Source: a bacterium (GTDB taxonomy: Bacteria; Cyanobacteriota; Vampirovibrionia; Vampirovibrionales; Vampirovibrionaceae). From it: 64,000 nt of DNA. The stretch's first letter is position 1; each line of letters begins with the position of its first letter. The translations under genes were made by a program, and so were the position numbers. Below, in pieces: positions 1,366 through 54,915 of this stretch. Where the stretch lies: the NCBI GenBank assembly GCA_030429585.1, contig JAUIEU010000001.1:987994-1051993 (forward strand), given 5' to 3'. Under the pieces are notes generated by a model that saw nothing but the letters and a program-made list of their open reading frames with translations, had not been told where the DNA came from and did not search any database.

Positions 1366-2226
1366 CTAGCCAATAATCGCATGCAACCACTTGCCCACTG
1401 CAGCCACATCTGCTAACCCGTACTGGGCACCCGTTGTAGCCTGCCCGCCAACGTGTATACCTGCCCCGCCCATGCGCGCAACCGTCGTAAAGCCAGCATC
1501 ATCTGTTTTGTCATCGCCTACAAATAACAACGTGGGTTGGGCGTTACCCGCCACAAAGGGCTGCCAGTAGGAAGTAATTTTTTCAATGCCCGCGCCTTTG
1601 TTAAAGGCTGTGGGGACAATCTCAATTACTTTTTTACCGGCTTGCAACCTAAACTGGGCCTGTATCTCCGGCGATTCTTGGTAATGTTGACGAAAAATAG
1701 CTTCTGCCTGTTGGGCCACATCATCTGCCGCCTGCCGATAATGGAGCGCAAAACAATGATGTTTTTCTTCAATGGCTAAACCTAGGCCTAACCATTGCTC
1801 CGGCGGATACGCCTTACCCAAAGCCTGGGTAACATGGGCCATAAACGCGTTAGAAAGCACCGGGTACGAATCCGATGGTTTCTCCGCCCAGGTATACGCC
1901 TTGCTGTTAGCCTGCCATACTTGCATTTCGCCACCATGCAACCCACACAATACATCCGGGGTTAAGGCATGTGGGGCCATAAACCCCTGTAGCTGGGCAA
2001 TATTACGGCCACTCAGCAATGCCCAACGGATATGCTCATGGGCAGAAAGATTGGCTAAGGTCGCCGCCATCGTGTCATCCAACATCGCGTCTTCTGGGCG
2101 AGCCACAATGGGGGTGAGGGTACCGTCATAATCCAACACCAACCACAAGGGGCTATCCTTACTGGGAGCAGGGAAGGTGTCACTCTGCACAGGGGGCAGG
2201 GCATCGGTGGGTACGGTAATGGTCAT
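1366..2226 (-). CDS. otsB: Trehalose-6-phosphate phosphatase
   Basis: HAD motifs LVLDYDGTLTPI and LFVGDDKTDDAGF; adjacent to otsA. Confidence 0.93.
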   Translation of the reverse strand: MTITVPTDALPPVQSDTFPAPSKDSPLWLVLDYDGTLTPIVARPEDAMLDDTMAATLANLSAHEHIRWALLSGRNIAQLQGFMAPHALTPDVLCGLHGGEMQVWQANSKAYTWAEKPSDSYPVLSNAFMAHVTQALGKAYPPEQWLGLGLAIEEKHHCFALHYRQAADDVAQQAEAIFRQHYQESPEIQAQFRLQAGKKVIEIVPTAFNKGAGIEKITSYWQPFVAGNAQPTLLFVGDDKTDDAGFTTVARMGGAGIHVGGQATTGAQYGLADVAAVGKWLHAIIG

Positions 2227-53564: not shown

Positions 53565-54194
53565 ATGACAATTACGATTGAAACGATTACCCACGCCCCC
53601 TTTAACGCCAACAGCTATATTATCCATAAGCAAGGCAGCACCGATGCGTTTTTAGTGGATTGCGGGCGCGACTGCCGCGCCATTAAACAGTATTTAAATA
53701 CCAACAACTTAGAATACGAAGACGTGTTACATACCCACGCCTTTATTGAGTGCCTAGAAGGCCAACCCACCCTGCGCGAAACCGATGACCTAATTGCCCA
53801 CATGAGCCCCATGGATGAATTTTGGCTAGCGCACTTGGATACCCAAGCCATTGTATTAAGCGTAGAGACCGTGCCCCAAGCCTTTGTCGACCAACAAGTA
53901 CTTCATGATGATGTACTGACCTGCGCTGGGCTAGACGTGCACGTGATTGAAACCCCTGGCATTAGCCCTGGCAGTATTACCTACTATGTACCCGAAGCGA
54001 ACGCCGCCTTTGTCGGTGATGTTATCCGCGATGGTGGGTTGGGGCCGCTGGATTTACCCTACACCAGCGCCAAAAACCTGCGTGATTCCATTGAGCAACG
54101 CCTGCTAACCTTGCCAGAAGATACCATGCTATACCCTAGCCGTGGCCCAGCCATGGTGGTAAGCCAACTAAAAAACCTTGCTGTCCCAGCCTAA
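53565..54194 (+). CDS. Metallo-beta-lactamase-fold protein with degenerate metal-binding motifs
   Basis: Fold motifs aligned by eye: NSYIIH..DAFLVDCG, VLHTHAFIECLEG, IETPGISPGSITYYVPE..AAFVGDVI, LYPSRGPAMVV. Confidence 0.8.
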   Translation: MTITIETITHAPFNANSYIIHKQGSTDAFLVDCGRDCRAIKQYLNTNNLEYEDVLHTHAFIECLEGQPTLRETDDLIAHMSPMDEFWLAHLDTQAIVLSVETVPQAFVDQQVLHDDVLTCAGLDVHVIETPGISPGSITYYVPEANAAFVGDVIRDGGLGPLDLPYTSAKNLRDSIEQRLLTLPEDTMLYPSRGPAMVVSQLKNLAVPA

Positions 54195-54221: not shown

Positions 54222-54455
54222 AATTCAGCGGCTAAAGCCGGTGCGGGGTGTAGAATGCGACGCATGAACACCCCAGCAGACCAATCGGCGGGTAAGCATT
54301 GCCCGTGATGCTAAAAAATTGGCAAGCGCAGCCGCCGTTGGAAAGGCGCATAGCAAGCGTACCGTCACATAACTAACGTTAGGGAGAGGTTTGGAGACAC
54401 CCTGTCTCCAATGGGAGTGGAGAGGGCTAGTCCTCTCCAAAAAAATCTAACCGTC
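54222..54455 (+). ncRNA. Copy 2 of the repeated structured intergenic element; strand inferred
   Basis: GCGGCT(54228-54233)/AGCCGC(54330-54335); GGGGTGT(54245-54251)/ACACCCC(54268-54274); GGAGACA-ccc-TGTCTCC(54393-54409); GGAGAGG/CCTCTCC(54419-54438). Confidence 0.7.
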
Positions 54456-54474: not shown

Positions 54475-54915
54475 CTATTTACGATATTCAACGGTCACAT
54501 CGGTGCTAATGCCGCCACGGGGGGTCATAACGGCGCTAACTTTTAGGTATTTTGGGTTAATGGCGGCAATAATATCATCGCGCACTTTATTAACCGCATT
54601 TTCGTAAAAAATACCTACATTACGGTAACCCAACATGTAATATTTAAAGGCTTTTAGCTCTATTACATGGGTATCAGGTTGGTACTCTACGGTAATGTCG
54701 CCAAAATCAGGCAGGCCTGTCATGGGGCACACGGCGGTAAATTCTGGGCAGCGGATGGTAATGGTGTAATCGCGGTCGGCATTCGTGTTTTCCCATGCTT
54801 CAATGGGGCTAAACTGCATAGCCTCGGGGGTGGTTACTGGGCAAATTTTAGTAATATCGCTATTTTGCGGGGCACCGGTGGGCGATAATTTTCGATCGGA
54901 AGCAGCAGTAGGCAT
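54475..54915 (-). CDS. queF: NADPH-dependent 7-cyano-7-deazaguanine reductase
   Basis: CPEFTAVCPMTGLPDFGDITVEYQPD, VIELKAFKYYMLGYRNVGIFYENAVNKVRDD, MTPRGGIST. Confidence 0.95.
   Translation of the reverse strand: MPTAASDRKLSPTGAPQNSDITKICPVTTPEAMQFSPIEAWENTNADRDYTITIRCPEFTAVCPMTGLPDFGDITVEYQPDTHVIELKAFKYYMLGYRNVGIFYENAVNKVRDDIIAAINPKYLKVSAVMTPRGGISTDVTVEYRK

Follow-up and report, generated by a model that had tools for sequence, protein, structure and literature searches.

The locus lies in a 64,000-nt stretch of DNA (the window) from a genome of the Vampirovibrionales, which are non-photosynthetic, predatory or symbiotic relatives of cyanobacteria. A gene for an MBL-fold protein on the plus strand (53565-54194; Pfam Lactamase_B) faces a convergent gene on the minus strand (54475-54915), a putative queF after the naming in the original prediction, and the gap between them contains a complete 218-nt copy of a repeated element, copy 2 (54227-54444, plus strand, ends aligned over 24 copies). 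The stop codon of the MBL-fold gene is 32 nt 5′ of the element and that of the convergent gene is 30 nt 3′ of it. A covariance model of the 5′ domain of the element (R1) matched exactly two copies in the window by cmsearch, at 54227-54359 (E 6.6e-38) and at 42619-42752, the latter belonging to copy 1 (42619-42836, plus strand), which is located between an M23 peptidase gene and a convergent minus-strand gene at 42883. The folding z-score relative to shuffles was -4.56 on the plus strand and -4.23 on the minus strand.

The original prediction described a second copy of a structured RNA element between these two genes, taking it for a discrete unit whose 5′ end is sharp and which is not simply a rho-independent terminator on the plus strand. 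The R1 match places the copy there, and both of its ends lie just inside the interval first proposed. Alignment of 24 copies, which defines the ends from many examples, bore out a sharp 5′ boundary, positioned at AGCGGCT (54227); the ATTCAG taken as the shared start is a chance flank of the two window copies and is missing from the other 22. In 24/24 copies a GC hairpin and then an A-rich run form the 3′ end (54439-54445 in copy 2, plus strand, where a terminator would have its T-run), with CAAA kept and then an A-rich sequence, and a sense T-run was found in 0/24, which agrees with the exclusion of a rho-independent terminator. The proposed RNA structure was likewise upheld by the fold and by covariation.

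The same structural plan is common to two genera: helix P1 closes a three-way junction with hairpins P2 and P3, and is followed by a linker, hairpins P4 and P5, an unpaired G-rich segment, hairpin P6 and the sequence CAAAA. On the plus strand of copy 2, the outer closing helix of P1 pairs 54228-54234 with 54351-54358 and the inner part pairs 54237-54239 with 54345-54347; outer and inner P1 together have 91-99 % of cells paired, with changes on both sides in five pairs. The P2 hairpin occupies 54242-54278 (54242-54251 paired with 54268-54278; 95.8 % paired, both-side changes in three pairs) and the P3 hairpin 54281-54341 (54281-54303 with 54321-54341; 97.9 % paired, one pair occurring as AU 13 times, UA 6 times and GC 4 times). 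Within P3 the internal loop, GGGURAGC/GCGCAGCC, is conserved and the apical loop is variable, being near random between copies. Conserved bases are confined to this internal loop and the apex of P2 (ACAAUGCG..AGCAU). The linker (54360-54386) is also variable, with a mean between-copy identity of 0.60 vs 0.54 for shuffled linkers. The 3′ part of the element forms two or three hairpins after the linker, including P5 (54391-54411; 54393-54399 with 54403-54409; 97.6 % paired, both-side changes in 6/7 pairs) and the terminal GC-rich P6 (54419-54438; 54419-54426 with 54431-54438; 96.9 % paired, both-side changes in 6/8 pairs), with the unpaired G-rich segment on its 5′ side. The 3′ G-runs raised the idea of a G-quadruplex, which was rejected because copy 2 itself has no GGG runs.

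Across the copies of this genome, standard pairs made up 96.3 % of 1275 pair cells, and both-side changes were present at 26 pairs (75 cells), a result matched by 0/500 shuffles. Pairing fell to about 40 % when the partner was slid by one base. The homologue in the second genus (genome G003, same family) has the same architecture with an almost wholly different sequence, and P1 differs completely between the two genera yet is complementary in each. Non-standard combinations at paired positions were G-U rather than A-C in a ratio of 28:14 here and 23:8 in G003 (pooled 51:22, p 0.0009, indicative only since related copies are not independent), and this excess of G-U argues that the conserved form is the plus-strand RNA and not a DNA hairpin or the minus strand.

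The genome containing the window (one contig, 2.21 Mb, 94.9 % complete) carries 24 dispersed copies, 11 on the plus and 13 on the minus strand. R1 matched 15 diverged copies in G003, and a second model built from these (R2) found about 31 copies in G003 and, when applied in return to this genome, 13. No element was found at E up to 2 in other genomes of the family or order, nor in the rest of the 382 genomes of the class (R1) or the 386 genomes of the phylum (R2), where covariance searches spanning over 40 genomes were run with stricter filters, so that weak matches may be missed. A BLASTN search with the element, covering 97 relatives as well as phages and plasmids, gave matches in this genome only. 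Three DNA patterns had no match in viral contigs and a fourth matched a single contig, unsupported by the models, while a degenerate DNA pattern searched in genome contigs returned mostly chance matches and two true ones, in the sister genome. Rfam, including HEARO, gave nothing at the gathering threshold and chance-level matches alone at E up to 5-10, and the literature searched held no RNA work on the Vampirovibrionales. The element is a family absent from Rfam and present in the Vampirovibrionales. Any function would not be a general one, because only two genera carry the element among the genomes sampled.

Thirteen of the 24 copies are in convergent gaps and eight are in same-direction gaps in the sense orientation; L019 is in a same-direction gap in the opposite orientation, L006 is in a divergent gap, and L018, with an upstream ORF lacking Pfam support, was left unassigned. 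A same-strand gene lies upstream of 21/23 resolved copies, usually 20-80 nt away, and at L006 and L019 the upstream gene points away from the element. When the composition of the window was used as an estimate for the genome, with convergent gaps accounting for 4.5 % and divergent gaps for 45 % of intergenic bases, the convergent class was far above random expectation (13/24, p 5e-12) and the divergent class far below it (2/24, p 1e-4). The ratio of sense to opposite orientation in same-direction gaps was 8:1 here and about 17:4 when G003 was added using mechanical gene calls (p 0.007). The convergent-gap context originally proposed thus describes both window copies and just 13/24 genome-wide, and the shared strand of the two window copies has no genome-wide meaning (11 plus, 13 minus), the actual rule being a position downstream of a gene in the same orientation. 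The genes that precede the copies vary widely in kind (sigma factor, PFK, SecF, BacA, PcsB-like peptidase and others), which disfavours a single regulon, and a shared regulon was sought among them and not found. In L019 the element (1501-1720) and the RNase P RNA (1774-2151, minus strand) run in opposite directions, with the element about 53 nt from the 3′ end of the RNase P RNA.

In this genome, 0/24 copies have an intrinsic terminator between the upstream stop codon and the element, and 0/24 have a sense T-run terminator in or after it. Intrinsic terminators were found at 2/30 transcription-unit ends in the window, which points to termination in this genome being mainly Rho-type or other, and the convergent gaps of the window mostly have neither element nor terminator. 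Intrinsic terminators are common near the copies in the sister genome, unlike the 2/30 in the window; about 10/31 G003 copies lie beyond the intrinsic terminator of the upstream gene and, for that reason, may not be co-transcribed with it. Upstream of the copies there is an AT-rich bump at about -15 to -9 (best -10-like score 2.93 vs 1.71 +/- 0.40 in shuffles) and a weak G/T preference at -2/-1, and no consistent -10 or -35 box was found, so that the promoter signal is weak and not fixed in position.

The core of the element is 88-98 % identical across copies, and the linker and loop are near random. Even the closest pairs, with cores 96-98 % identical, had linkers 56-81 % and P3 loops 47-71 % identical, against a shuffled null of 54 %. 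The core is intact in 21/24 copies and the weaker BLAST matches form no tail of decayed copies. L022:1416-1603 (minus strand) has an internal deletion that removes part of P3 and P1 (CAAGCGC to linker), the sole such truncation here. With linkers and loops this close to randomness around intact cores, no pair of copies is young and every copy is old. The core is probably under purifying selection in place, acting on the RNA, since copies that were dead at insertion should diverge evenly over core and linker; as an alternative to selection, there may have been long-lived active lineages with quick loss of dead copies.

Copy sites are almost never common to the two genera. A metalloprotease-NAD kinase gene pair is separated by the element in this genome, and in G003 the two genes overlap by 4 nt. 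Convergent gaps in the window measure 11-90 nt without the element and 280 and 334 nt with it, and removing 218 nt brings the latter near the range of the former, as expected of an inserted unit. Insertion of a unit, as originally suggested, is therefore favoured by the gap lengths and by one element-free syntenic pair, but insertion that was simple and recent cannot account for copies that are all old with their cores preserved. A fixed target or adjacent motif, which the original prediction suggested looking for, did not emerge beyond the weak G/T at -2/-1: flank matches averaged 4.79 vs 4.84 for mispaired flanks, giving no sign of target duplication in old copies whose duplications may have decayed. 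Terminal inverted repeats were absent, the 5′ AGCGGCTGAAGCC and 3′ CCCCCGTCAAAAC not being inverted copies. Core-site boxes of the kind found in integron attC sites did not stand out in the alignment. The Y1 (IS200-type) transposase domain PF01797 had no match in this genome (94.9 % complete; 5/14 control genomes positive), nor did the reverse transcriptase domain PF00078 (3/14 controls positive), as would be looked for in REP/RAYT systems and in SINE- or group II-like retrotransposed elements, respectively. The TnpB domain was found in neither genome, with positive controls matched, and the IscB RRXRR search was empty, with no positive control matching either. Copies are mildly clustered (9 distances between neighbouring copies <20 kb vs 4.5 expected, p 0.014). 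The only site common to both genera (L023 here, L224 in G003) has the order M23 peptidase (plus), element, isochorismatase-family gene (minus), and may have been inherited vertically or be a coincidence; a third genus (G005) also has this gene pair, and there the element gave no match. Six G003 loci (L226, L227, L228, L230, L231 and L233) are chimeras that fuse the 5′ or 3′ part of the element with a second repeat (..GGCGTGTTTA..TAAACAAGGCGTAAAT..TTACGCC..AAGCCCAGCTTGCTGGG). Replacement or interruption of part of the element by this second family suggests that several small repeat families have recombined or inserted into one another.

HEARO/OMEGA RNAs of IscB and TnpB elements are structured, about 200 nt long and present as many dispersed copies without a protein gene; the Rfam result and the absence of TnpB would set the element apart from them. 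The best functional parallel is ERIC/IRU of Enterobacteria, an intergenic interspersed repeat of about 127 bp that is co-transcribed with flanking genes and whose RNA fold alters upstream mRNA stability in an orientation-dependent manner (PMC2229807), but ERIC is a single long stem bounded by terminal inverted repeats and target duplications, whereas the element lacks such repeats, shows no sign of duplications and folds as a three-way junction with hairpins. BOX, RUP and SPRITE of Streptococcus pneumoniae are modular, structured once transcribed, enriched between convergent genes and found as mosaic copies (PMC3049150). The element resembles them in all four respects, but their fold and sequence are unrelated to it, and BOX and RUP have terminal inverted repeats resembling resident IS, whereas no partner of the element was found. 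REP/BIME sequences (GTAG and CGTC superfamilies) mostly sit right behind genes, in gaps of the convergent or same-direction type (PMC3733652), and 10/24 copies of the element start with the REP tag GTAG followed by a short palindrome; REP is, however, a single palindrome of 20-40 bp, whereas the element is a unit of about 218 nt in which GTAG is missing from the sister genus. The element is analogous to ERIC, BOX and REP, larger and more complex; it fits no sequence definition of ERIC, BOX, RUP, SPRITE or REP, and at most works like them without being a member.

The preferred explanation, with a probability of roughly 45 %, is that the element is a lineage-specific, multi-copy structured RNA, a once-mobile interspersed repeat now kept as a cis-acting module of 3′ untranslated regions. 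On this view it once spread as a small interspersed repeat, and mRNAs of the upstream genes would now carry it as their 3′ tail. There the three-way junction and terminal hairpins may act in cis on the formation or decay of the mRNA 3′ end, by blocking 3′ exonucleases and/or by offering proteins a binding platform, in a genome nearly without intrinsic terminators; the apex of P2 and the internal loop of P3 could be where a protein binds. This explanation is favoured by the fold, its conservation in two genera, the plus-strand RNA form, the placement at the 3′ ends of genes, and the age of the copies combined with their intact cores. It is weakened by the roughly one third of G003 copies past a terminator, by L006 and L019 with upstream genes that point away, by the restriction to two genera, and by the fact that selfish repeats likewise sit at gene 3′ ends (PMC3049150, PMC3733652). 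That last point belongs to the rival view that the element is mobile but non-autonomous and purely selfish (MITE- or REP-like), in which case its fold would serve transposition and its 3′-end insertions would survive as the least harmful. Dispersed copies in both genomes (24 and 31), sites that mostly differ between the genera, the metalloprotease-NAD kinase pair, the chimeric and nested copies, the mild clustering and the GTAG starts are all consistent with it, and the excess of convergent over divergent sites is the pattern of BOX, RUP, SPRITE and REP. We nevertheless consider it rather doubtful, as the hallmarks of mobility (terminal inverted repeats, target duplications, Y1 transposase, reverse transcriptase, TnpB) were not found here, and the copies, which should decay evenly if dead, mostly keep intact cores, with neither a young pair nor a decayed tail.

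A family of trans-acting sRNAs, released from 3′ untranslated regions or made from their own promoters, would combine a common scaffold with variable loops and linkers pairing with different targets. The conserved core with its copy-specific P3 loop and linker fits this, the sister-genus copies past a terminator would need their own promoter, and the A/T bump and G/T preference make one possible; the explanation is unlikely, because the promoter signal is weak, no copy has a T-run terminator, and loop and linker are near random rather than conserved in groups. Less probable still is a non-canonical or bidirectional transcription terminator. The scarcity of intrinsic terminators, the stable hairpins closing the 3′ end and convergent gaps in which the element is nearly everything between the two stop codons would suit that role, but the sequence past the last hairpin is A-rich rather than T-rich, most convergent gaps of the window manage with neither element nor terminator, true terminators sit 5′ of the element in the sister genus, and the conserved three-way junction far exceeds what a terminator needs.

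Maintenance of the fold while the sequence changes argues for an undescribed family of working RNA elements and not for junk or an ordinary stop signal. A broader proposal, put forward tentatively and with appreciable doubt, is a new class of complex non-coding RNA in bacteria with 24-31 paralogues per genome, each combining the common scaffold with a private loop and linker and selected at the 3′ ends of unrelated genes, either as genome-wide 3′-end control or as a family of sibling sRNAs binding a dedicated protein. Interspersed repeats downstream of genes are usually classed as selfish DNA. Whether such repeats became working mRNA 3′ ends is directly testable with this family, because it offers a large covarying fold, two independent lineage versions whose sequences have turned over almost completely, and a set of copies among which none is young and decay is not widespread. 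Among the G003 copies, a short repeat, GGTA(C/T)CCAAGCTGCGCTTGGAAGGCTTCGCT, recurs directly 5′ of several (L221, L230 and L056).
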